NCBI RefSeq assembly: GCF_019879105.1
Contig: NZ_CP082249.1
Location: 2,976,001 to 3,040,000, forward strand
Source of the DNA: Natrinema sp. SYSU A 869
Lineage (GTDB): Archaea; Halobacteriota; Halobacteria; Halobacteriales; Natrialbaceae
DNA length: 64,000 nt
Direction of reading: 5' to 3'
A program made the translations under genes and the position numbers. The notes below the pieces were generated by a model, which had not been told where the DNA came from, did not search any database, and was given only the letters and a program-made list of their open reading frames with translations. Shown here piece after piece: positions 3,845-37,350 of the stretch. Every line of letters begins with the position of its first letter. The first letter of the stretch is position 1.

Positions 3845-6800
3845 ATGAGTACGGACACCGCCACAGACGCCGAGACGGGCGACGGGCGCACGATCCTGTT
3901 GATCGGGAGCGGTCCGATCCAGATCGGACAGGCCGCTGAATTCGATTATTCGGGCGCACAGGCCTGCCGAGCCCTCCAGGAGGAAGGTGCCCGCGTCGTC
4001 CTCGTGAACTCGAATCCTGCGACGATCATGACGGACCCGGAGATGGCCGACGAGGTCTACATCGAGCCGATCACGACCGACGCCATCGCTGAGATCATCC
4101 GCAAGGAGAACCCCGACGGCGTCATCGCCGGGCTGGGCGGCCAGACCGGGCTGAACGTCACCGCCGAACTCGCGGAGGAAGGAATCCTCGAGGAGTACGA
4201 CGTCGAGATCATGGGAACGCCGCTGGACACGATCTATGCGACGGAAGACCGCGACCTCTTCCGCCAGCGCATGGAGAAGATCGGCCAGCCGGTTCCCGCG
4301 TCGACAACCATCTCGCTCGACGAGGGCGAGGAGGTTTCGGAACTAACCGAAGACGATCTGAAAGACCGCGTCCAGGCCGCCGTCGACAAGGTTGGCGGGC
4401 TGCCGGTCATCGCCCGAACGACCTACACATTAGGCGGCTCCGGTTCCGGTGTTGTCGCGGAGATGGACGAACTCCTCCAGCGTGTCCGTAAGGGCCTGCG
4501 CCTCTCCCGTAACAGCGAGGTACTCATCACGGAGTCTATCGCTGGCTGGGTCGAGTACGAGTACGAAGTGATGCGCGACGCCGACGACTCCTGTATCATC
4601 ATCTGCAACATGGAGAACATCGACCCCATGGGCATCCACACCGGGGAGTCGACGGTCGTCACGCCCTCTCAGATCGTCCCCGACGAGGGGCATCAGGAGA
4701 TGCGTACCGCCGCACTCGACGTCATCCGTGAACTCGGTATTCAGGGCGGCTGTAACATCCAGTTCGCCTGGCACGACGACGGCACCCCTGGCGGCGAGTA
4801 CCGCGTCGTCGAGGTTAACCCGCGCGTCTCCCGCTCTTCCGCACTCGCGTCGAAGGCGACCGGCTACCCGATTGCCCGTGTGACCGCAAAGGTCGCGCTT
4901 GGCAAGCGCCTCCACGAGATTACGAACGAAATTACAGGCGAGACAACCGCCGCCTTCGAGCCCGCGATCGACTACGTGGTTACGAAGGTTCCGCGGTGGC
5001 CCAAGGACAAGTTCGACGACGTCGACTTCGAGCTAACGACGGCCATGAAGTCGACCGGCGAGGCGATGGCCATCGGCCGCACCTTCGAGGAAAGTCTCCT
5101 GAAGGCACTTCGCTCGAGCGAGTACGAACCCGACGTCGACTGGGCCGAAGTCAGCGACGACGAACTCGAGGACCACTACCTCGAGCGCCCGTCGCCGGAC
5201 CGTCCCTACGCGATGTTCGAGGCGTTCGAACGCGGCTACACTGTTGAGGAAGTCCAGGAACTGACGGGCATCTTCGAGTGGTACACCGAGCGCCTCAAGC
5301 GCATCGCCGACTCGACGATCGCCGCCCAGGAGGGTGACTTCACCGAGGCTGCGATCGCCGGCCACACCAACGCAACGATCGCCTCCGCCGCCGGCGCGGA
5401 CGTCGACACTGTCGAAACCGAGGTTCCCGGCCGTACTTACAAACAGGTCGACACCTGCGCCGGCGAGTTCGAGGCCGAGACGCCGTACTACTACTCTGCG
5501 CGTAAGTCCGAGTTCGAGTCCGGCCCACTGCTGGGCGACGCTGCTGCAGGCGAACTTGAGGTCAATCGCGACATCGAGAGCGTGATCGTCGTCGGCGGTG
5601 GCCCGATCCGCATCGGACAGGGTGTCGAGTTCGACTACTGTTCGGTCCACGCAGTCCGCGCCCTGCGCGAACTGGGGATCGACGCCTACGTCGTGAACAA
5701 CAACCCCGAGACCGTCTCGACGGACTACGACACCTCCGACGGCCTCTTCTTCGAGCCGATCACGGCCGAGGAGGTCGCCGACGTCGCCGAGGCGACCGGT
5801 GCCGACGGCGTGATGGTCCAGTTCGGCGGTCAGACCTCCGTCAACATCGGCGAACCGCTCGAGGACGAACTCGCGCGCCGCGGGCTTGACTGTGAGGTCA
5901 TGGGCACCTCTGTCGAAGCGATGGACCTCGCGGAGGACCGCGACCGCTTCAACGCCCTGATGGACGAACTGGGCATCGCCCAGCCCGAGGGCGGCACGGC
6001 CTTCTCCGAGGAGGAAGCCCTCGAGTTGGCCCACGACATTGGCTACCCCGTCCTCGTCCGCCCCTCCTACGTGCTGGGCGGCCGTGCGATGGACGTCGTT
6101 TACAACGACGAGGAACTCGAGACCTACATCGAGGAGGCGGTTCGTGTCGCACCCGACAAGCCGATCCTCGTCGATGACTTCCTCGAGGACGCGATCGAGC
6201 TCGACGTCGACGCGGTCTCTGACGGCCGCAACGTCATCATCGGCGGCATCATGGAACACGTCGAAACGGCGGGCGTTCACTCCGGCGACTCCGCGTGTAT
6301 GATCCCGCCGCGCTCGCTCGATGAGGATACCATAGAGCGCGTCCGCGAGGTCACCGAGGACATCGCCGAGGCGCTCAAAACGAAGGGCCTGCTGAACGTC
6401 CAGCTGGCTGTCCGCGGCGTCTCCGGGCATGGCCCGGATGGCTCGTCGGACTCTGACGAGTCCGACGCTGGCGAGGTGTACGTCTTAGAGGCCAACCCGC
6501 GTTCCTCGCGTACCGTCCCGTTCGTCTCGAAGGCGACCGGCGTCCCGATCGCCAAACTCGCCGCGAAGGTCATGGCCGGCGAGACCCTCTCGAGTCTCGA
6601 GGTTGACGAGCAGATCCCCGACCACACTTCGGTCAAGGAGGTCGTTCTGCCCTTCGACCGTCTGCCGGGCTCGGACCCGCGTCTCGGTCCGGAGATGAAG
6701 TCCACCGGCGAGGTCATGGGGACGGCCAGCGATTCCGGCACGGCCTACTGGAAGGCCCAGCAGGCCGCCGATAACGCCGTCAGCGAGGGTACTGCTGTGG

Positions 6801-24273: not shown

Positions 24274-27200
24274 TCAGTCGTCGCCCGCTTCGTTGATTTC
24301 GGGCGTGTACTCCGCCGGCCCACAGCCTAACGACCGGTGCGGACAGTGCTGGCAGTGGTCCCCCGGCGTCGTCTCCGTGAACGATGGTTCGTCGACCGCT
24401 TCCAGTGTCTCGAGGACTGACTCCCAGGACGGGAGCTCGTCGGGCTCGAGGAGGTCAACGCGAGGGCCGTCAACGTCGCCGACGTAGATGTAGCCGACGG
24501 CCGAGATCGGTTCGTCGAACCGATCCTCGCAGGCCCGTGCGTAGAGCGACAACTGGACGGCGTCGTCGGGTTCGATCCGCTCCGCGGTGGCCTTGTAGTC
24601 CAGCACTGCGAGCCCGCCGTCGGGAAGCCGCCGGACCGAGTCCACGTAGCCGACGACGTCCCCCGTCACTCCGGTCACATCCTCGAGCGAGAAGGGGAGT
24701 TCCGCGGCCAGCGGCTCCCAGTCGGCGACCGGGCGATCGAACTCCGGCGCGGTCGCCGCGAAGTAGTGGTCGACGCAGGCGAGGACCGGCTCACGGTGTG
24801 CGAGCAGGTCCCGGGCGGTGAGCTGTCGGACGGCGGCCTCGCGCCACGCCTCACGGGTGCGGTACTCGCGGTGGAACGCCTCCTCGGCGACGTCGTGGAA
24901 GACGGTGCCGACAAGTCGCGACGACGGGTCGCCGGTCGCTGCGGGCGTCCCACCGTTCGTCTCGATCTCCTCGTCGTCCACCGCGACCGCCGTGAGCGGG
25001 TCGTCGATCGCCCGGACGACGTGATCGAGGTAGTGTTTCCGGGCACAGGTCTCGTGAGTGTCCATCGCGGAGTAGCTGTGGCGCATCGCGACCGGGAGCT
25101 CCGTCGCCGTCGCGAGCGTCTCGACCGGGAACCGGACCGTGTCGGTCGTCAGCGCAGAGGCTCGCCGACCGCTGGGGACTCGAGTCGGTGCGTCCGCCGC
25201 CGATCGGTCGTCGCTCCCATCCTCGTGCGGGCCGTGACTCGCGGCGTCGGCTGCCGACAACAGCGTCCCGTCGCGAAGCAGCCGTCCCAGCTGGTGGACG
25301 GTCGCAATCGCCTCGCGGGTCTCGAGCGGTTCGATGGGGCGGTCGCCGTAGTCGGCGTAGTAGGTGATCGTTCCCGGGCTCTCGCCGGCCGAGGCGGCGA
25401 TCTCGTCGGTGCGATCGACCACGGTTTCGGGGTAGGTCTCCCGCACGCGATCAAAGCTCTCGGTCAGCGACGACCAGAGATCCATCCGCTGGCCGGTCAC
25501 TGACCACTCGATGTCGCTCGCCAGGCAAGCCTCGGCCGTCGACGCCGCGAGTTCGTCGTCGTCACCGTCGTACTCGTACTCGGAGCCGAACACGAACAGG
25601 TGCGCTTCGGCCCGGGTGAGCGCGACGTGGAGTACCCGCCACTCCTCGGCGACCCGCTCGGCGGCGAGATCGGCGAGCAGTGGCGAATCCACGTCATCAT
25701 CGAGCGTCGCAGCCAGCAATCGGTAGCGGGCCCGCTCGACGTAGTCGCCGTCGACGCACCACTCCTCGTCCGAGAGGTAGGGGGCGAGGACGGTATTGAA
25801 CTCGAGGCCCTTCGCTTGGTGGACCGTCATCACGTCGACGCAGTCCTCGGAGTGGGTCCCACGCGTTCGGTCGCTCCCACCGCTTCGCAGGGTCTGTGCC
25901 AGCGCGTCCACGAACTCGGTCGACAGCGACTGGACGACGCCATCGGAATCGTAGGCCTCGACGAACCGCTCAAGGCGGTCGAACGCCGCCCGTTCATCGC
26001 TCGTACAGAACCACTCGATTCGAGTTAGCTCTCGGAACCGTCGAACGAAGCCTGAGAGCGGGTAGACATCTCGGAACCGCTCGAGGGCCGTGAGGTGCGC
26101 TCGAACCGTCTCGAGTCGGTCGGGTCGCTCGAGATCGAGCGTCGCCGGGTCGGCGTCCATCACGGCATCGGACAGCGATCCGTCCCGCCGCTGCAGCGTC
26201 GCGAGGTCGCCTTCGGTGAAGCGGTAGCGATAGAGCAGCACACGTCGGAGGTGGGCGTCGGCATCCGGCTTGACGAGGACTCTGAGATACGAGAGTACCG
26301 TCCGAATCCCGGGCGAAATCTCGCCGCGGGGCGAGCCGGATATCTCGTGGGGAATCTGTAGCTCCTGCAGTTCGTCCGCGACCTGCTGTGCGTGGTGGTT
26401 GGTCCGGACGATGACAGCGATATCGCCCAGCGAGCGCTGTGGGACGTTCGCGGCCTCGCCGTTGAGCAGCCGCGAGACCGTCGTCGCGACCTGCTCGGAC
26501 GTCGACTGTGGAACCCGATCGCTCTCGACTTTGACGACCCGGTCCGGCGGCTCGTCCTCGTCGTAGGTGCCGGCCGTCCGGCCGTCCTCCCGCAGCGTCT
26601 TCGAGGACTGAGGACCGTAATCACAGGCGTTGGTCAGGTCCAGGATCTCCTGTCTCGAGCGGAAGTTGAGCTCGAGTTCGATCGCCTCGTGGTCGTCGTA
26701 GGCGTCGGCAAGCCGGTCTAACCCCTCTCGGTCGGTGCCGCGCCAGCCGTAGATGGCCTGGTCCTTGTCGCCGATCGCGAGCAGGTCCGGCCGGTCGGGG
26801 CCGTCTGTGAGTTCGGTCAGGAGGGAGAACTGGGTCGCGTCGGTGTCCTGGAACTCGTCGCAGTAGACCTGCGTCCACTGGCCGGTGATCTCGTCGGCGA
26901 TCGCGTCGTCGTTTAACAGGTCGGTCGCCGTCCGCACCAGTTCGTCGAAGTCCATCGCCCGCTCGGCCTCGAGTGCGTCGTGGTAATCCGCGTAAACGTC
27001 GGCGTAGTGGCGGGCCAACCGGAGGAACTCGACGTAGTGTTTCAGCCGGCCGAAGGGGGTCTGTTCGATCCGGCTCGTCGCTTGCCCCCAGATTCGGTTG
27101 CCGAACAGCGCCCGCGGCAGGTGTTTCGTCGTCGGGTCGTCCAGCGATAGCGCATCGATCGTATCGGTCACGCACTGCTGGAGCACTCGGAGATAACGAT

Positions 27201-28050
27201 CGACGTCCTGCACCAGGTCGTCGTCGCGGAAGGCCGCTGGTGCCTCCGCGATCTTCTCCCGGCAGTAGGAAACGAGTTTGCCGTAGTCGACCAGCGATTC
27301 CCGGGCCGTCTCGAGGTACTCGTCCCGGTTGAAATAGCGAAGCGCCTCGTTGTCGAACGAGAGGTCCTCACCGGCGGTCCGCTCGAGCCAGAGGACGAAC
27401 TCGTTGCACAGCTCGAGGGTCCGCACTGGCGGCAGCCCCGACTGCAGGTCGTCGGGCGTGATATCTTCCTGACTCATCGACTGAATGAACCGGTCGATGG
27501 CATCGACGAGGTCGGCCGGCGAGCCGTCGTTGCGGGTCGACGCGGCCGCGAAGTCGTAGTCGTTGTCTGCGAGCAGGCGGCCGATGAGCCGGCGACGCGT
27601 GCGCTCGGTGACGACGTCGAACTCCGGCGAATACCCGAGGTAGTAGGCGTACTCCCGGACCAGCCGGTAACAGAAGGAGTGGTAGGTGTAGACGTCGATC
27701 GCCGCCGCGGCGTCGGGCTCGAGCCGCTCGCTGACCGCCGCCCGGATGCTCGCGGCCGCCTCGTTCGCGAAGGTTAACACGAGCACGTCGTCGGGGTCGA
27801 CATCGCCCCGCTCGATGGCGCGCTCGATCCGGACGAGCATCGTCGTCGTCTTCCCGGTGCCGGCACCCGCGTCGACTGAGGTACAGGCCGCGCGGCTGTC
27901 GATGACCGCCTCCTGGTTGCCCTTCGGTTCGATCTCGGCGGCGGACGCGAGGCCGGCAGCGGCCGTCGCGTCAAGTCCGTCGTCGGTCGGGTCGGCCCCC
28001 GGCTCGAGCGGTCGCTCTCCACTGCCGTCCCGCCGCGAGTTGTTACCCAT
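24274..28050 (-). CDS. AddA/RecB-like UvrD helicase with Fe-S PD-(D/E)XK nuclease domain
   Basis: 1258 residues. Superfamily 1A helicase motifs: Q-motif region EPKGNQEAVID, Walker A DAGAGTGKTT (61-69), VLTFANEAA, DEFQDTD, GDKDQAIYGWRG, LNFRSRQEI, MTVHQAKGLEF and HVALTRAEAHL. The C-terminus is a PD-(D/E)XK nuclease domain (GYVDSV, AVLDYKAT, QLSLYA) with four cysteines, one in ETCARKHYLDH and three at 1233, 1236 and 1243 (CQHC...C), the pattern of an iron-sulfur nuclease. It should unwind and degrade DNA ends. The ATG at 28050 overlaps the preceding gene by 8 bases. Its homologues include AddA and RecB. Confidence 0.9.
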   Translation of the reverse strand: MGNNSRRDGSGERPLEPGADPTDDGLDATAAAGLASAAEIEPKGNQEAVIDSRAACTSVDAGAGTGKTTTMLVRIERAIERGDVDPDDVLVLTFANEAAASIRAAVSERLEPDAAAAIDVYTYHSFCYRLVREYAYYLGYSPEFDVVTERTRRRLIGRLLADNDYDFAAASTRNDGSPADLVDAIDRFIQSMSQEDITPDDLQSGLPPVRTLELCNEFVLWLERTAGEDLSFDNEALRYFNRDEYLETARESLVDYGKLVSYCREKIAEAPAAFRDDDLVQDVDRYLRVLQQCVTDTIDALSLDDPTTKHLPRALFGNRIWGQATSRIEQTPFGRLKHYVEFLRLARHYADVYADYHDALEAERAMDFDELVRTATDLLNDDAIADEITGQWTQVYCDEFQDTDATQFSLLTELTDGPDRPDLLAIGDKDQAIYGWRGTDREGLDRLADAYDDHEAIELELNFRSRQEILDLTNACDYGPQSSKTLREDGRTAGTYDEDEPPDRVVKVESDRVPQSTSEQVATTVSRLLNGEAANVPQRSLGDIAVIVRTNHHAQQVADELQELQIPHEISGSPRGEISPGIRTVLSYLRVLVKPDADAHLRRVLLYRYRFTEGDLATLQRRDGSLSDAVMDADPATLDLERPDRLETVRAHLTALERFRDVYPLSGFVRRFRELTRIEWFCTSDERAAFDRLERFVEAYDSDGVVQSLSTEFVDALAQTLRSGGSDRTRGTHSEDCVDVMTVHQAKGLEFNTVLAPYLSDEEWCVDGDYVERARYRLLAATLDDDVDSPLLADLAAERVAEEWRVLHVALTRAEAHLFVFGSEYEYDGDDDELAASTAEACLASDIEWSVTGQRMDLWSSLTESFDRVRETYPETVVDRTDEIAASAGESPGTITYYADYGDRPIEPLETREAIATVHQLGRLLRDGTLLSAADAASHGPHEDGSDDRSAADAPTRVPSGRRASALTTDTVRFPVETLATATELPVAMRHSYSAMDTHETCARKHYLDHVVRAIDDPLTAVAVDDEEIETNGGTPAATGDPSSRLVGTVFHDVAEEAFHREYRTREAWREAAVRQLTARDLLAHREPVLACVDHYFAATAPEFDRPVADWEPLAAELPFSLEDVTGVTGDVVGYVDSVRRLPDGGLAVLDYKATAERIEPDDAVQLSLYARACEDRFDEPISAVGYIYVGDVDGPRVDLLEPDELPSWESVLETLEAVDEPSFTETTPGDHCQHCPHRSLGCGPAEYTPEINEAGDD

Positions 28051-29077
28051 CGAACCGCACCTCCGCTGCGATATACTCCTGACAGCAGACAGTGTAGTCA
28101 CAGTCGGGACACGCGTGCTCTGCGATCTGTGCCCAGCGCTCGGACGGATCGAAGGGGCCAGAGAGCAAGCTCGCAGCGATCCTCGAGAGTCGGTCGTCGA
28201 CGGTCTCGTTTCGGTGGTCGTGTGTCATGCCGTAGGTGTGGTGGTCGACGTAAACGTCGGTCAGATCGACGACCTCGAGGCTCGTCTCGACGGTGTCCTG
28301 GACCCAGTTCACCGTCGTTCCCGAGCGCTCTGCCAGCGGAATCTGGAGATATCGACAGGTTCGGTCACCGAGCCCGAGCCGGTCGCGGAGCCCGCGAAGC
28401 CCGTCGAGGACGACGGCGGTCTCGAAGAGCGAGCCGACCGGGTCCGGTTCGAATGTGGTCGACTCCTCGTCGAAGTGGTCGGTGAAGAGTTCGGCGATGT
28501 CACCCTCCCAGTCGGACCGGTAGCGCAGGTGACCCAGCGGCGCGAGCGTCGGGACGAACCGGACGCCGACGATCGACGAGCCGTCGCCGTAGACGTAGTC
28601 TACCGTCGCGTCGATCATCGCCCGTCCGGCCTCGTGGTCCCCATCGGATACCTCGACCGTGCTCGAGAGTGGCAGTCCCGGCCCGATCAGTTCGCCGCGG
28701 GCCGCGTCGGCGTCCAATCGCTCGATCCCCGCGGCGTGGTCTGCCCCGACGCGCTCGAGGTATGCCGAAAGCGTTGCCTCGAGTACTCGTCGCTCGTGAC
28801 GGCGCTGCGTTCTGGAGTGAAACGGCTCGTCGTGCTCGTTCCACAGCGTCGAGAGCCGATCGCTGGCGACGGCCTCGAGCGCCTCCTGCTCCGTCTCCCC
28901 GCTCCGGAGCGCGTCGCAGATGGCGGTCCGCAACACGTCCACGCGGTCGGCGACCGCGTCATCGTCGCTCCCCTCGAGGCCGTGAATGTGGGCGAATTCG
29001 TATCGGCGCGGACAGTGGAGCGCGGTGCGGAGGCCGTCGACGTCGATCGTGGGGGCGGTCGTCGCGTCGTCAGTCAT
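28043..29077 (-). CDS. Cas4/AddB-nuclease-like Fe-S protein, catalytic motif degenerate
   Basis: 344 residues. It has a Cas4/AddB-type cysteine frame: Cys22 in ALHCPRRYEFAH and CPDCDYTVC near the C-terminus, so four Fe-S ligands seem present. The core strand region TVDYVYGDGSSIVGVRF lines up with the catalytic D...(D/E)xK segment, but the ExK position reads GVR; the nuclease is probably inactive and structural, as in RecC. Overlaps the preceding gene by 8 bases and the following helicase by 8, so the three products are surely made together. It may act as a DNA-binding subunit of an AddAB-like complex; this is inference. Confidence 0.75.
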   Translation of the reverse strand: MTDDATTAPTIDVDGLRTALHCPRRYEFAHIHGLEGSDDDAVADRVDVLRTAICDALRSGETEQEALEAVASDRLSTLWNEHDEPFHSRTQRRHERRVLEATLSAYLERVGADHAAGIERLDADAARGELIGPGLPLSSTVEVSDGDHEAGRAMIDATVDYVYGDGSSIVGVRFVPTLAPLGHLRYRSDWEGDIAELFTDHFDEESTTFEPDPVGSLFETAVVLDGLRGLRDRLGLGDRTCRYLQIPLAERSGTTVNWVQDTVETSLEVVDLTDVYVDHHTYGMTHDHRNETVDDRLSRIAASLLSGPFDPSERWAQIAEHACPDCDYTVCCQEYIAAEVRFDG

Positions 29078-31328
29078 CGCGCATCACCTCGCCCGCAGCG
29101 AACTCGAACTGCGAGCGGACCGCCTCGGCGAGCTCGTCGTCGACGTCGCCCTCTTCGAGCACGACTGCGATCTCTTCGAACAGCGCCTCGGTCTCGCCGA
29201 GGTCGGCCTCGCCGCCGGTGCTGGCCTCCCGGAGGACCCGTTCGAGTTCGCCGCGGGGCTGGTTGAGCAGCGCCTCGACGGCGTTCGTCTCGCCGTGGAT
29301 GGCCGCGTCGCCCGCGGCGTCGACGTCTTCGATGCGGAGTCCGGGCGTCGACTCGAGCAGTTTCAGATAGCGCGACTCGTCGTAGGTCCGCTGGAGGCCG
29401 CCGGCACCGCGCTCGTAGGAGCACCAGTAGAGAGCACGCTCGGCCGCGCGCGCACCAAGTGCGAGCCGCCTGCGGGAGCGCTGGGCGTGGTACGTCTCGA
29501 AGGGATCGCCGACAGCGGTCGCGTCGACCGGCTCGAACGTCTCCGCGATCTCCTCGAGCGACGGGTCGGTGACCGCGGGATAGGTCGGCATCTCTCGGAG
29601 CCACGCCGATGGGAACAGCTGGGTGAGGAACTGCTCGCCCGGGTAGGTCTCGTCGATCAGATCCAGCAGGAAGACCGCCTGCCGCGAGTCGTACTTCAGG
29701 TCGTCGACGGCACAGACGGTGACGCCGCCGGTCGGCGGCCGCGTCTCGACCGCATGGACGTAGGGCGCGTCGTACCTGATCGTTCGCCGGAGCATTCGGC
29801 GCAACCCCTGCCAGTCCGGCCCCACGAGGTCCGTCTCCTCGACGAAACGGGCGATCTCGAGGACGCGCTTCATACCTTCGTACTGCTCACGGGCGTCGAC
29901 CCATTCCTCCTCGCGGGCGATTCGTCCTTTCAGGTCCGTCCGGCGGATCCAGCGCTCGAGCGAGCGGCGGACGCTCGACCCGGCGGTTTCGGCGAGCAGG
30001 GCCGTCGAAAAGTCGGGGACGCGGGCCTGAAGACGGTTCAGCGAGACGTCTCGCGGGTCGCTCGAGTCCCGGGACTCGCGGGACGGTTCGGCGGGATCGA
30101 ACCGCTCGAGTGCGTCGCCGTCGCGCTCTCGTTCGCACTGGCACGTGATGACCGCATACAGTTCGTTCACTGCAGGGTCTTCGGCTAGTGAGGGCGTCCC
30201 AATCGTCGCGGTCGGCACTCCGGCGTCCCGGAGCCGCCGTCTGGTCTCCGGAACCCGCTCGATTCGCGGCACGGCGACGGCGAACTCGTCGGCGGACCAG
30301 CCGTGGCGGTCGGACAGCGACTGGATTTCGGTCGCGACTGCCCGGACCTGTTCACGGGCGGTCTCGGTGCGGATGCGTCGGGCCCGACCTGCCGGGTCTC
30401 CCACTGTGGACCCGTCACCGGTATCGACGTTTCCCTCCGGCGGCTCGCCCGTTGCGAGGAACCGCGTGATCGGTTGATGTGGCGGTGCATCAGTAGATTC
30501 ACAATCGGACACGGGCTCGAGTGACTCGATCTCGAGGCCAGCATCCCTCGCCGCCTCCTCGACGCAGCCCGGTTCGACCCGGGTGCGCTCGACGCTGGCG
30601 TGGCGTTCGCCGAGACAGACGAGGTCGACGTCGCCGGAAAGCGCCGCGAGGTATCGTCGGTCGAGTCGGCGGTACTCCTCAAATTCGACGGCGAGGACGG
30701 CGTCGAAGGAGGCGGTCACGCGGGTTCGCAGTCCGTCCGCGTTCGCCTCGAGCAAGTCGACCGCTTGCGGGATCACGTCCGCCCGCTCGACGTAGCCTCG
30801 ATCGTCGAGTTCCGCATGGAACCGGTCGTTCATCGCGTAGAGGAAGGCCAGACAGTCATGGGGCAAATCGAGGTCATCGAGCCGGATCCGTTGGCGGGTC
30901 GCCGCGAGCAGCAGTTGCCCAACGTCGCGCGCGAAGCTCTCGTGGTCGGCCGCGCGCTCGAGGTAGGCGGGAACCGATCGGCTCGCGCCGTCGATTACCA
31001 TCGAAATGAGCTCGATACGTTCCTCGTACTCGAGTCGAGAAAGCGTCGGATCGTATTCCTCGATGGTCTTCGAGGCGTGTTCCGGAAGCGACTCGATTCG
31101 GGGCGAGCGGGGACCATCGTCGGTCCGCTCGAGGTCGGCATCGGCTAACGCCTCGATCAGTGTCTCGAGACCCGCCGGATGCCGTTTCAGCACCAGGACG
31201 TTCCGCGGGCCGTGTTCCGCGGCGAGAGCGGCGTACTCCGCGGCAACCGTCGCGAACACGTCGGTCCCCGGCGCAGGTGCGGGAAGGAGCTTGCAGGTTC
31301 CGTCGAGTGCGGGCGGCGTGGCGGTCAT
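29070..31328 (-). CDS. AddB/RecC-like helicase-fold subunit lacking Walker A
   Basis: 752 residues. The pattern resembles the inactive helicase half of AddB/RecC: no GxGKT at the N-terminus (APAPGTDVFATVAAEYAAL instead), but late helicase features survive, namely VTVCAVDDLKYDSRQAVFLLDLIDE-type motif V region and a motif VI-like RALYWCSYERG. First gene of the operon, overlapping the next by 8 bases. Probably a scaffold or sequence-reading subunit for the AddA-like helicase. Family assignment is from motif layout and gene order, not from a search. A TATA-like ATTTAAATA lies about 30 bases ahead of the ATG. Confidence 0.72.
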   Translation of the reverse strand: MTATPPALDGTCKLLPAPAPGTDVFATVAAEYAALAAEHGPRNVLVLKRHPAGLETLIEALADADLERTDDGPRSPRIESLPEHASKTIEEYDPTLSRLEYEERIELISMVIDGASRSVPAYLERAADHESFARDVGQLLLAATRQRIRLDDLDLPHDCLAFLYAMNDRFHAELDDRGYVERADVIPQAVDLLEANADGLRTRVTASFDAVLAVEFEEYRRLDRRYLAALSGDVDLVCLGERHASVERTRVEPGCVEEAARDAGLEIESLEPVSDCESTDAPPHQPITRFLATGEPPEGNVDTGDGSTVGDPAGRARRIRTETAREQVRAVATEIQSLSDRHGWSADEFAVAVPRIERVPETRRRLRDAGVPTATIGTPSLAEDPAVNELYAVITCQCERERDGDALERFDPAEPSRESRDSSDPRDVSLNRLQARVPDFSTALLAETAGSSVRRSLERWIRRTDLKGRIAREEEWVDAREQYEGMKRVLEIARFVEETDLVGPDWQGLRRMLRRTIRYDAPYVHAVETRPPTGGVTVCAVDDLKYDSRQAVFLLDLIDETYPGEQFLTQLFPSAWLREMPTYPAVTDPSLEEIAETFEPVDATAVGDPFETYHAQRSRRRLALGARAAERALYWCSYERGAGGLQRTYDESRYLKLLESTPGLRIEDVDAAGDAAIHGETNAVEALLNQPRGELERVLREASTGGEADLGETEALFEEIAVVLEEGDVDDELAEAVRSQFEFAAGEVMRDD

Positions 31329-31970: not shown

Positions 31971-33143
31971 GTGAACTGGTCATACAGGAATACGGTCCTC
32001 GTTCTCTGTACGTTCGCGTTCTTCGTAACGGTGACCGCGCGGCTGGTGATCAGTCCGGTCGTTCCCGACATCGTCGAGACGTTTTCGGTTAGTACCGGCG
32101 CGGTCGGACTAGCGCTGTCGGGCATGTGGGCCGCGTACGCGCTCTCGCAGTTTCCGAGCGGGCTGCTCGGCGACCGATTCGGCGAGCGGCGAATCATCCT
32201 GACCGCAATCGGCGGAACGGCGGTCGCGAGCGCCATCCTTGCGCTATCACCGACGTACGTCGCCTTCCTGCTCTTCGCAATCGTCCTCGGCGGGGCGGCC
32301 GGCCTCCACTACAGCGTCGCGACGACGCTACTCACTCGGTTGTTCGATCAAACGGGACGTGCGATCGGGATCCACGTCTCCGGCGCGCCGATCGCCGGCC
32401 TCGCCGCGCCGGTGCTCGCCGCGATCGCCGCCGACCGATACGGCTGGCGCGCAGCGATCGCCGTCGGGACGGCCGTCGGGATTCCGATCATTGTTCTCTT
32501 CTTCCTCCAAACCCGTCCGACGGAGCCGCGCTATCCCGATCGGCGGATGCGAGACCAGGTCGATCCGTCCCTTCTCTCGCAGTTGCTGGCCCGCCCCAGC
32601 GTGGCCTACACGACCGCGCTCTGTGCGATGGGTGCCTTCACTTGGCAGGCCACAGCGTCGTTTCTCCCGACGTTCCTCGCGGTCGGCTACGGTCTCCCGC
32701 GGACGACGGCCGGCCTCCTGTTTTCGCTGTACTTCCTCGTCAACGGGGGCGTCCAGCCGCTGATCGGGTCGCTGTCCGATCGCTACTCGCGCGACGCCGC
32801 CGCCGCGATCACGATGACGGCGGGACTGGTCGGCTTCGCAGTGTTGGTCACCGGCGACGGGCTGGTAACGGCGATCGCCGGAGTCACCTGTGTCGGTGTC
32901 GCAATGACCTGGGGTGCACCGCTGCAATCGCGGTTCATGGACGTGCTCTCTTCCTCCGAACGCGGCCTCGGTTTCGGACTCGTCCGGACCGCCTACATGA
33001 TACTCGGCGCAACGGGGAGCGTCGCCATCGGCACGGCCGCCGATCTGTTCGGCTGGATGGTCGCGTTCGGCCTCCTCTCGACGATCATGGCGATCGCGCT
33101 GGTGACGATCGCCATGAACAATGTCCTCTCACTGGGGTACTAA
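31971..33143 (+). CDS. MFS transporter
   Basis: 390 residues, 12 hydrophobic segments, with the major facilitator motif A in the first half (GLLGDRFGERR, about 62-72) and a weaker version in the second half (GSLSDRYSRDA). A proton- or sodium-coupled carrier of a small organic solute is expected. It starts at GTG 31971; no ATG in frame is better placed. It converges on a TPP-dependent enzyme gene with 29 bases between stops; with the IclR regulator further on, it may import a substrate for that enzyme. Confidence 0.87.
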   Translation: MNWSYRNTVLVLCTFAFFVTVTARLVISPVVPDIVETFSVSTGAVGLALSGMWAAYALSQFPSGLLGDRFGERRIILTAIGGTAVASAILALSPTYVAFLLFAIVLGGAAGLHYSVATTLLTRLFDQTGRAIGIHVSGAPIAGLAAPVLAAIAADRYGWRAAIAVGTAVGIPIIVLFFLQTRPTEPRYPDRRMRDQVDPSLLSQLLARPSVAYTTALCAMGAFTWQATASFLPTFLAVGYGLPRTTAGLLFSLYFLVNGGVQPLIGSLSDRYSRDAAAAITMTAGLVGFAVLVTGDGLVTAIAGVTCVGVAMTWGAPLQSRFMDVLSSSERGLGFGLVRTAYMILGATGSVAIGTAADLFGWMVAFGLLSTIMAIALVTIAMNNVLSLGY

Positions 33144-33172
33144 CTGAAGCCCGATTCCACCCCTGAACCCGC

Positions 33173-34816
33173 CTACTCGCTCATCCAGTCGCTCGCCTGT
33201 GGTTCGCTCGGGTCCGTCGGAATCTCGACGAGAACCGGCTCCGCTGCCTCGAGCGCGGACACGAGCGTTGACCGAATTCCCGACGGCGTCTCTGCGTGCT
33301 CGGCCCGCATCCCGAGACTCGTCGCGAGGCCCGAGAAACTGATCGGCGCGTCCGTCCAGTCGTACTCGCCGGCCTCGAGATCGTAGTTCCGGCCGGCATC
33401 GTCGCTGATGATCGCGTAGTCCTCGTTGACGAAGACGACAATAGTGATCGGCAGCCCCTCGGAGACGGCCGTGTGGAGTTCGTGGACACACATCATGAGT
33501 CCGCCGTCGCCGACTAGAACGACCACGTCCTGGTCGGGGTTGGCGACCTGTGCGCCGATTCCCGACGGGAGGCTGGTTCCCATCGTCGCCCACGAGCCCG
33601 GATTGACGTACGAGCGCGGCCCCGCGGCCTCGAAGACGTTGAGTCCCCACACGCGGGAACCGCCGGCGTCGGCCGTCACGATCGCCTCCCGCGGGACCGC
33701 TTCCCGAATCGCCTCGAGCGCGCTAACCGACGTGATCGGCGGCGACGAGTCTCGCAGGTCCTCGAGTCGCTCGCTCGTCGCTGTTCGGATCTCGCTCGCA
33801 CGCTCGATGGCGTCTCTGGCCGTGAACTCGCGGTCGGCGAGCGCGTCCTCGAGCGCAGACAGTGCCTCGCCGGCGTCGGCAACGATGCCGACTGTCGGGT
33901 CGTAGCCAGTCCCGAGATCGCCGGGATCGAGCGTGACGTGGACGAGAGTCTCGGGCACGCTCACGGACCAGGAGCGGGTCGTGACGGCGTCAAAGTCCGT
34001 GCCGACCGCGAGCGCCGCGTCCGCGCTCGCGAGGAGTTCGAGCAACTCGGGTGATGCACTGCCCGACAGCGTTCCGGCGACGTATCCGTCGGGACCATCG
34101 GGGAGGACGCCTTTCCCCTTGTAGGTGGTGACGACGGGCGCGCCGAGTCGCTCCGCGACGTGCCGGAGGTCGTCGCTCGCCTCGGCGGCGCGGATGCCAC
34201 CGCCGGCGATGATCACCAGCTCATCGGCGTCGGCGAGACGATCGGCAGCTGCATCGATATCGCGATCCGCGGCCCCCGAGACCGAGTCACGGCTGTACTC
34301 CGCCGGTGTCGCGAGCGGCACGTCCATCGACAGGAAGTTCTTCGGAATCCCGACCCGGACCGGCCCCTTCGGTGCCGTCTCGGCGATCGCGATGGCCTCC
34401 TCGAGGATGGCGAGCGTACTCTCGGGGGCCTCGACGAGCAGATTCGCTTTGACGACATTGTCGTAGGTGTCCGGCGGCGTCTCGTGAATGCCGTCGCCAC
34501 CGCGGATCTCGGGTTCGGTCTCGACGGCGATGTGCACGAGCGGCGTGCAGTCGTTGAGCGCGTTCTTCAGCCCGTTCATCGCGTTCATATCGCCCGGACC
34601 GGGCACGACGGCCGTCGCCGCGGGCTCCCCGCTGGTCTCCGCGTACCCCCATGCCTGATGAGTGACGGCAGTCTCGTGGCGAGCCATGACGAACTGAATG
34701 TCGTCCCGCGCTCCGATCGCCTCGTTCAACGGGAGTGTCTGTTTGCCCGGGATGCCGAACACGGTGTTAATCCCGTCGGCCGCCAATCGCTCGATGACCG
34801 CTCGGCTCACGTCCAT
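33173..34816 (-). CDS. Thiamine-pyrophosphate-dependent enzyme, acetolactate-synthase type
   Basis: 547 residues with the three TPP-enzyme domains: N-terminal Pyr domain (GIPGKQTLPL, catalytic-type Glu in ARHETAVTHQA), central domain (VIIAGGGI, GTLSGSASPELLE), and C-terminal PP domain with the TPP/Mg motif GDGGLMM...NEDYAI. Related enzymes include acetolactate synthase, benzoylformate decarboxylase and sulfopyruvate decarboxylase; the residues visible do not choose. GAGGTGA (34821-34827, minus strand) is 4 bases before the ATG at 34816, a good Shine-Dalgarno, deciding this start over the one at 34840. Divergent from the IclR gene. Confidence 0.88.
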   Translation of the reverse strand: MDVSRAVIERLAADGINTVFGIPGKQTLPLNEAIGARDDIQFVMARHETAVTHQAWGYAETSGEPAATAVVPGPGDMNAMNGLKNALNDCTPLVHIAVETEPEIRGGDGIHETPPDTYDNVVKANLLVEAPESTLAILEEAIAIAETAPKGPVRVGIPKNFLSMDVPLATPAEYSRDSVSGAADRDIDAAADRLADADELVIIAGGGIRAAEASDDLRHVAERLGAPVVTTYKGKGVLPDGPDGYVAGTLSGSASPELLELLASADAALAVGTDFDAVTTRSWSVSVPETLVHVTLDPGDLGTGYDPTVGIVADAGEALSALEDALADREFTARDAIERASEIRTATSERLEDLRDSSPPITSVSALEAIREAVPREAIVTADAGGSRVWGLNVFEAAGPRSYVNPGSWATMGTSLPSGIGAQVANPDQDVVVLVGDGGLMMCVHELHTAVSEGLPITIVVFVNEDYAIISDDAGRNYDLEAGEYDWTDAPISFSGLATSLGMRAEHAETPSGIRSTLVSALEAAEPVLVEIPTDPSEPQASDWMSE

Positions 34817-35621
34817 ACGCTCACCTCGTAAACCAGGCACTTATGATCTCCCGTCAGTCCGCTCTCGGCCTCGTTTTCCGAGCGACGACTCGAGCCGTGA
34901 AACACCGCTTTCAGCGCTGATTCCGTGATCTATTCGCTCATATCGTCTCATCCGGATCCGTATGGGCTTCCCACTTATCAGTATGAATTACATCCATATC
35001 TATGTAAGCCTAATGGGGGATTCTCGGTCGATTTTCGTCGTCTCGGCTTGCGATTAGCCGGGTCGACAAACTAATACATCCGTTCAAATGAACAATGGAT
35101 GTGTGATTGAATTCATCTATTCGTCCGGTTTCGCCTGCGTTCCGTCACACTGATTCGAATCACGGTCCGATGATACCACGGTCGGCGGTCGAAAACAGTG
35201 TAAGTTGGGCCGTCTCGAGCAGCGGTATCGCAAGGATTGGCTCAGAACGCCTCCATATTTCGATTCGCGAAACGATATCCGAATGCCGATCGTCACCGGA
35301 ACCGACAGTATAGCCGATCTGTCTCTCGTCGTAATCGTGTCCTGCTGCGAAGGGGATTTGGTGAGTAAATTACGCAAGGTACAGACTGCCTCCGTCGCCA
35401 ATAGCGTCGTCGATTGTGGTCGTCATCGTTGTCACTTGTACTATCGGCTCTCTACACCCTCTCTACAGGAACTCAATAAGGTCGTTTCTTTTGGATTGCT
35501 GCCAATGGTGACGGCGACCAAATTGATGGGAATAGCCGTCGCTATCGGAGAGCGAAATAGTTCGCGGAGACGTTTCTCATTGGTGAACATTTTTATGGGT
35601 ACGGGCGCTATGACGCATATC
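34817..35621. other. Long divergent regulatory region
   Basis: About 805 bases between the TPP enzyme (minus) and the IclR gene (plus). It contains AT-rich tracts (34970-35020), a short inverted repeat at 35082-35093 and a TATA-like TTTTTATG at about 35590. Open frames here (35117-35401 minus; the upstream extension of the IclR frame from 35205) have no recognisable content. No other gene seen. Confidence 0.4.
35082..35093. promoter_or_regulatory. Candidate operator GTTCA-AA-TGAAC
   Basis: A perfect 5-base inverted repeat with a 2-base centre in the region between the TPP enzyme and the IclR regulator. IclR proteins bind palindromes of about this size near their own and target promoters, but the distance to either start (266 and 529 bases) is large. 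Position-based suggestion only. Confidence 0.25.
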
Positions 35622-36945: not shown

Positions 36946-37350
36946 ATGGAGGATATTTTCGTCGCTCGGGTCATGTCCTCGTCACTGCACACGGTGACGC
37001 CAGACACGCTCGTCGAGGACGCTGCTCAGAAAATGCTCGACAATGAAATCAGTTCGGTCGTCGTCGTCGACGACGACAATCAGCTCGAGGGGATCTTGAC
37101 GACGACGGACTTCGTTCGGATCGTTGCCGAACAGAAGCCGAAGGATCAGACGTTGGTTTCGAAGTATATGAGCAGCGACGTCGTGACGGCATCCGCTCAA
37201 GATAGCATCCGCGACGCCGCGGATGTGATGATCGAACGCGGCTTCCACCATATTCCCGTCGTCGATGAGGACGAGGGCGTCATCGGGATGGTCACCACGT
37301 CGGATTTGGCGGGCTACCTCTCGCGCGAGCAGTCGCCGAGTCCGGAGTGA
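36946..37350 (+). CDS. Two-CBS-domain protein
   Basis: 134 residues, essentially a tandem CBS pair: first repeat about 5-62 (VMSSSLHTVTPDTLVEDAAQKM, VVVVDDDNQLEGILTTTDF), second about 70-128 (YMSSDVVTASAQDSIRDAADVM, IPVVDEDEGVIGMVTTSDL). CBS pairs bind adenosyl ligands (AMP, ATP, SAM, NAD) and regulate partner proteins; the partner is not adjacent in an operon. A TATA-like TTATATTG about 27 bases before the ATG suggests a leaderless mRNA. Confidence 0.9.
   Translation: MEDIFVARVMSSSLHTVTPDTLVEDAAQKMLDNEISSVVVVDDDNQLEGILTTTDFVRIVAEQKPKDQTLVSKYMSSDVVTASAQDSIRDAADVMIERGFHHIPVVDEDEGVIGMVTTSDLAGYLSREQSPSPE

Follow-up and report, generated by a model that had tools for sequence, protein, structure and literature searches.

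In AddAB (RexAB) of the B. subtilis type a single motor unwinds the DNA, the nuclease of AddA cuts the 3' strand and the nuclease of AddB cuts the 5' strand, and the helicase-like half of AddB, like that of RecC, lacks most or all motor motifs and recognizes Chi, for which F68 of AddB is a binding residue (PMC4824097). In RecBCD one nuclease works, and the dead nuclease domain of RecC, which retains no metal-ligating residues, serves as a hoop for single-stranded DNA (PMC1185551). No paper on archaeal AddAB was found in our literature searches, the scope of which was papers outside subscription, and an earlier description is possible. The operon of Halobacteria described here is probably an AddAB-type end-resection helicase–nuclease with its B subunit in two chains, which in the lineage of the window (the whole stretch of 64,000 nucleotides from Natrinema sp. 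SYSU A 869 that was analysed) would have one working nuclease, as in RecBCD. It resembles AddAB in that gene3 is comparable to AddA, an SF1A motor–nuclease, and in that gene1 and gene2 are comparable to the two halves of AddB; however, AddB unites both halves in a single chain and its nuclease is active, whereas the B side here consists of two chains and its nuclease site is lost in the window's lineage. A further contrast to AddAB is that gene3, the A subunit, also bears four Fe–S-type cysteines, and a second active nuclease with Fe–S cysteines on the B side is absent in the window, where only the cysteines are present, but complete in a sister lineage, referred to below as ON. The operon is comparable to RecBCD in that its B side has helicase and nuclease domains that are predicted to be dead, here in two chains, which would leave a single nuclease, that of RecB corresponding to that of gene3, but RecC is a single chain with RecD as its partner, whereas gene2 retains the motif-II Asp and its four cysteines; no RecD-like gene lies within the operon. 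We have classed the operon as a split variant working like AddAB, not as canonical AddAB.

The three genes follow one another in the same direction on the minus strand, as gene1 (29070–31328; 752 aa), the inactive-helicase subunit, gene2 (28043–29077; 344 aa), a separate AddB-type Fe–S PD-(D/E)XK domain that has lost its catalytic residues, and gene3 (24274–28050; 1258 aa), an AddA/RecB-like SF1A helicase with a C-terminal Fe–S nuclease. Open reading frames were called mechanically, and the genomes of the relatives are partly drafts. An 8-base overlap joins the stop of gene1 to the start of gene2 (29070–29077, minus strand, ATGACTGA), and another joins the stop of gene2 to the start of gene3 (28043–28050, minus strand, ATGGGTAA). 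The longest mechanical reading frame of gene3 begins further up, at a GTG at 28101, but the ATG at 28050 is the likelier start because it yields this second 8-base overlap. The two overlaps suggest translational coupling of the three genes, and the reading frames, strands and coordinates agree with the original prediction of three overlapping minus-strand genes with 8-base overlaps. Scans of the operon for repeats and with bacterial promoter and terminator models gave nothing useful. Since the public records name the relatives of gene1 only as 'DNA helicase UvrD' or 'hypothetical protein', those of gene2 as 'PD-(D/E)XK nuclease family protein' and those of gene3 as 'ATP-dependent DNA helicase', the kinship to AddB is absent from these records.

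The gene3 product matches the PcrA/Rep/UvrD, RecB and AddA models (E ~1e-41 for both AddA and RecB) and is intact, with the Walker A motif GAGTGKT (27847–27867, minus strand), which is present in 123/123 family members, and motifs II to VI. Its nuclease domain (24331–25077, minus strand; PF12705, E 2.4e-20) carries D-Y-K at 24592–24600 and four cysteines, and Walker A, motifs II to VI and the His, the Asp, the D-Y-K and the four cysteines of the nuclease are complete in all 122 of the copies that reach this domain, whatever the state of gene2. The earlier description of gene3 as a full UvrD-type helicase with an Fe–S nuclease is thus borne out, with all SF1A motifs and the entire nuclease site in place. 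The UvrD–Cas4 fusions likewise combine a UvrD-type helicase with a PF12705 nuclease, but are without the two B-side partners (PMC5704561). Stand-alone fusions of UvrD and PD-(D/E)XK of about 1020–1050 aa were also seen in other members of the phylum (L122, 2647–5703; L123, 4018–7158), and these are distinct from the AddB–AddA pairs described below. Gabija was considered for the operon and rejected: its GajB is a UvrD-type helicase too, but only gene3 matches the GajB models, which we take as general UvrD similarity, gene1 and gene2 match nothing, and Gabija needs the GajA nuclease, which was not found here.

In the family alignment the window's gene2 differs from the active lineage by the substitutions H50→R, D173→R and K175→V. 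R50 (28928–28930) occupies the position of the motif-I His and R173-F174-V175 (28553–28561) that of D-Y-K (VRFV versus IDYK), whereas the motif-II Asp, D160 (28598–28600), is kept in both lineages, all on the minus strand. The Fe–S-type cysteines are C22 (29012–29014, minus strand) and C323, C326 and C332 (28082–28111, minus strand). The original prediction was correct in the four cysteines and in the loss of the catalytic (D/E)xK, but the 'GVR' that it placed there is out of register, and it missed the lost motif-I His. Genes with His, Asp and D-Y-K are called ON and those that have lost these catalytic residues OFF; among 125 loci, 55 are ON, 67 are OFF (including the window) and three are intermediate. 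In two of the intermediates (L187 and L188) D-Y is still present but the His and the Lys are lost, while in the third (L191, gene2 at 5182–6108) D-Y-K is kept and only the motif-I His is lost (to Asp), a possible half-way state between ON and OFF. The four cysteines are found in all members except for one Cys-to-Tyr change in L185. PF12705 recognizes the ON genes at E 1e-20 to 1e-24, whereas the OFF genes match it at 1e-6 at best or fail to match, the window's gene2 lying below the threshold at 1.1e-3. The original prediction had overlooked that gene2 occurs in two states, of which the silenced one is only one, that the sister lineage is active and that the Fe–S cysteines are retained.

Strong matches were confined to Halobacteria among 393 genomes drawn across the phylum. 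In 391 Halobacteria genomes drawn, gene1 was found in 140, namely in 89/101 Natrialbaceae, the family of the window, versus a patchy 51/290 of the other Halobacteria, both fractions being counted from the table and the assignment to Natrialbaceae being judged from named relatives. One group within that family, g5, is without the operon. Conservation of gene order across Halobacteria, which the original prediction had named as a check, was found for gene1–gene2–gene3 in 124/125 fetched loci, which excludes chance as the origin of the three-gene arrangement, and in the same 124 loci the B subunit is encoded by two genes, unlike the one-chain AddB. The sole exception is a gene1 remnant on pHLAC01 of Halorubrum lacusprofundi (L202, 6989–7924; plasmid 306927–307862), which encodes a truncated protein of 311 aa without gene2 or gene3 and has transposase genes nearby.

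The surroundings of the operon differ between the two states. A CBS-domain gene (36946–37350 in the window) is found close to OFF operons like that of the window in 41 of the fetched loci. In several relatives it adjoins gene1 directly, whereas in the window an MFS-type and an acetolactate-synthase-like reading frame (31971–34840) separate it from the operon, which reads as a local insertion or rearrangement. ON operons are often found on plasmids, and their neighbours include Argonaute with PLD genes, genes for type I restriction or for a tyrosyl-DNA phosphodiesterase, and other genes of DNA processing. Of the 34 loci in the largest ON cluster, 16 have a PLD gene directly upstream, and an Argonaute gene was seen in 14, within short flanks. 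On a Salinigranum marinum plasmid (L198, 4151–15421; NZ_CP100464.1, 34919–46189) an Argonaute (Piwi) gene, a PLD-family gene and the ON operon follow each other in one direction, which reads as an Argonaute-linked AddAB-like cassette. A 2024 paper describes a haloarchaeal Argonaute–PLD pair with a helicase gene near some of them, and its available passages do not treat gene1, gene2 and gene3 as an AddAB-like unit (PMC11442185). In 11 loci (among them L089, L130, L079 and L081) a divergent AAA ATPase with DUF4143 lies upstream of gene1 in plasmid-borne ON operons. Among the loci read, an ON and an OFF operon occur together in at least six genomes (for example L092/L093, L095/L143 and L130/L196), and Natrinema zhouii has its OFF copy on the chromosome (L047) and its ON copy on a plasmid. 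The ON operon on plasmid NZ_CP084884.1 of N. zhouii (L201, 4266–15390) comes just after genes for a metallophosphatase exonuclease and an SMC/Rad50-like ATPase, with orc1/cdc6 nearby.

The plasmids and neighbours of the ON operons, together with the patchy occurrence outside Natrialbaceae, would fit a complex that is chiefly a defence enzyme degrading foreign DNA, with break repair as a secondary role. We regard this as unlikely, as the family to which the OFF lineage belongs has the operon in most of its genomes and OFF operons recur near the same CBS-domain gene, while no Argonaute was found in the window's genome and no relative of the operon was found on viral contigs. An AddAB-type enzyme for end resection is the reading that we prefer for the window's lineage, although the operon need not be the sole resection route, since the window's genome also has NurA-type genes.

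For gene1, a profile built from 30 family members found B. subtilis AddB as its top solved structure (3u44_B, E 1.1e-8), whereas a phmmer search of the PDB with the single sequence gave no match, and neither Pfam, PADLOC nor NCBIfam (searched to E 1 and including its curated AddB models) holds a family for it. Among its relatives the curated AddB model TIGR02773 gave weak matches with L087 and L191 only. The AF2 model of gene1 (pLDDT 80.3, pTM 0.81) has a UvrD-type fold, and its widest match is to AddB, with Z 22.7 over 633 residues (AddB 2–769, gene1 9–745); the match to RecC is weaker (Z 15.7), while UvrD and Rep reach Z ~26 (over 424 residues for Rep). A Walker A pattern is found in none of the 125 family members, as the original prediction of a helicase-fold protein without Walker A had it, and E217-E218 is invariant within a segment resembling motif II. 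The position of AddB F68 is Leu in most gene1 proteins in the sequence alignment, and a different signal may be recognized. A gene1 without an AddB/RecC-like fold had been named as one outcome that would refute the original prediction; instead, profile and model both show an AddB/UvrD-like fold.

The AF2 model of gene2 (pLDDT 81.8, pTM 0.84) matches AddB best, at residues 785–1137 (Z 15.1, 282 residues), tied with the nuclease domain of mycobacterial AdnA (Z 14.9) and followed by Cas4-family and Dna2 nucleases, and the match to RecC is weaker (Z 5.8). AdnA and AdnB are each one chain with helicase and nuclease parts, unlike gene1 and gene2. At the sequence level NCBIfam and PADLOC hold no family for gene2, and its profile gave only chance matches with PDB sequences. 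Because gene1 and gene2 together span AddB with a break at about 770–785, AddB appears to be split at the junction between its helicase and nuclease parts. The same order is found on an AddB that another archaeal lineage of the phylum makes as a single chain, where the gene1 profile covers residues 17–731 (E 8.6e-12) and the gene2 profile residues 705–891 (E 5e-7). Four such single-chain proteins (L125–L128; 1018–1141 aa) have the four cysteines and D-Y-K and adjoin an AddA-like gene; two of them were scanned and matched curated models of AddB (E 1e-20 and 6e-19), without reaching the cut-offs of these models. These pairs resemble the present operon in being archaeal, in having B beside A, in the four cysteines and in a B subunit with no obvious Walker A, and differ from it in that their B subunit is unsplit and its nuclease motif intact.

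Instead of deriving from one AddB chain, gene1 and gene2 could be an inactive paralogue of UvrD and a Cas4-like protein that were joined separately, and the fold of gene1 alone cannot distinguish AddB from such a paralogue, because its Z against UvrD and Rep exceeds that against AddB; UvrD and Cas4-like genes have also been linked more than once elsewhere (PMC5704561). We consider this origin improbable, since AddB is the top sequence match of gene1, the model spans the whole N-terminal part of AddB beyond the helicase core, the best fold of gene2 is AddB's own nuclease domain, and gene1 and gene2 map end to end on the single-chain archaeal AddB. The collinear alignment on both AddB proteins supports the original prediction that AddB is split here and its nuclease half silent, as it is in RecC.

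It is very unlikely that gene2 is still a nuclease by means of relocated or different catalytic residues, although relocation is known in the PD-(D/E)XK superfamily (PMC1185551) and the dead lineage conserves R50, Q91, H114 and E339 beside an invariant D160. Three of the four catalytic positions are gone, and OFF genes differ among themselves in what stands there instead, with R, Q, N, S or K at 173 and V, L or Q at 175, as expected when the catalytic constraint has gone. Moreover, W79, H114, P211, P311 and the cysteines are conserved in the active lineage too, and are therefore likely to be structural, and the residues conserved in the OFF lineage include no evident stand-in for the catalytic residues elsewhere in the chain, the presence of which had been named as the other outcome that would refute the original prediction. 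The OFF genes have dN/dS of 0.17–0.32 (window versus ten relatives), within the range of gene1 and gene3, and this purifying selection indicates that the gene2 protein is used. That gene2, with its catalytic residues lost, is a decaying gene without function is scarcely credible, being already contradicted by this selection and by the 67 loci in which the open frame, the gene order, the overlaps and the cysteines all persist.

The silencing of gene2 probably happened once. In a tree of concatenated gene1 and gene3 the ON members form one group (SH-aLRT 96), which L191 joins at 100, and a single change between ON and not-ON is needed. The gene1-only tree needs two such changes, and the gene3-only tree, with a far outgroup, three changes over three states; in the latter, 30 non-ON rows, L191 apart, group at 94, and the placement of L191 is unsure. 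Loss of the gene2 nuclease is the likelier direction because AddB proteins outside the family have intact motifs; since the very long outgroup branch leaves the root of the tree unsure, this direction is taken from the motifs and not from branch support.

By analogy with the bacterial enzymes, the three proteins may form a single complex that resects DNA ends before recombinase loading and so would have a role in repair. The gene3 protein, as the A subunit, would be the sole motor of the complex, being an SF1A helicase that also carries an Fe–S nuclease, and gene1 would correspond to the helicase-like half of AddB without ATPase activity; in AddB and RecC it is this half that scans the 3' strand, a strand assignment that we infer for gene1, and a Chi-like control signal, if any, may act here. 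The nuclease half of AddB would be supplied by gene2 as a separate subunit, so that two nucleases would work in the ON complex, as in AddAB, and a single one, that of gene3, in the OFF complex, as in RecBCD. In the OFF complex, gene2 has most likely been kept as a cluster-stabilized DNA guide or scaffold, comparable to the single-stranded DNA hoop of RecC. There is about an even chance that the split-AddB machine reached a RecBCD-like state independently of bacteria, with gene2 as a guide, and that the plasmid-borne ON operons serve in defence, some of them as Argonaute cassettes.

RecBCD has been proposed to have passed through an AddAB-like stage before the nuclease domain of RecC was inactivated (PMC1185551), and the same step from AddAB to an enzyme with one nuclease seems to have been repeated separately inside one archaeal family. 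As both states are alive, sometimes in one cell, this step can be tested by swapping one small subunit. For end resection in haloarchaea, for which a review names Mre11–Rad50 (PMC7776575), the operon is an added candidate enzyme.
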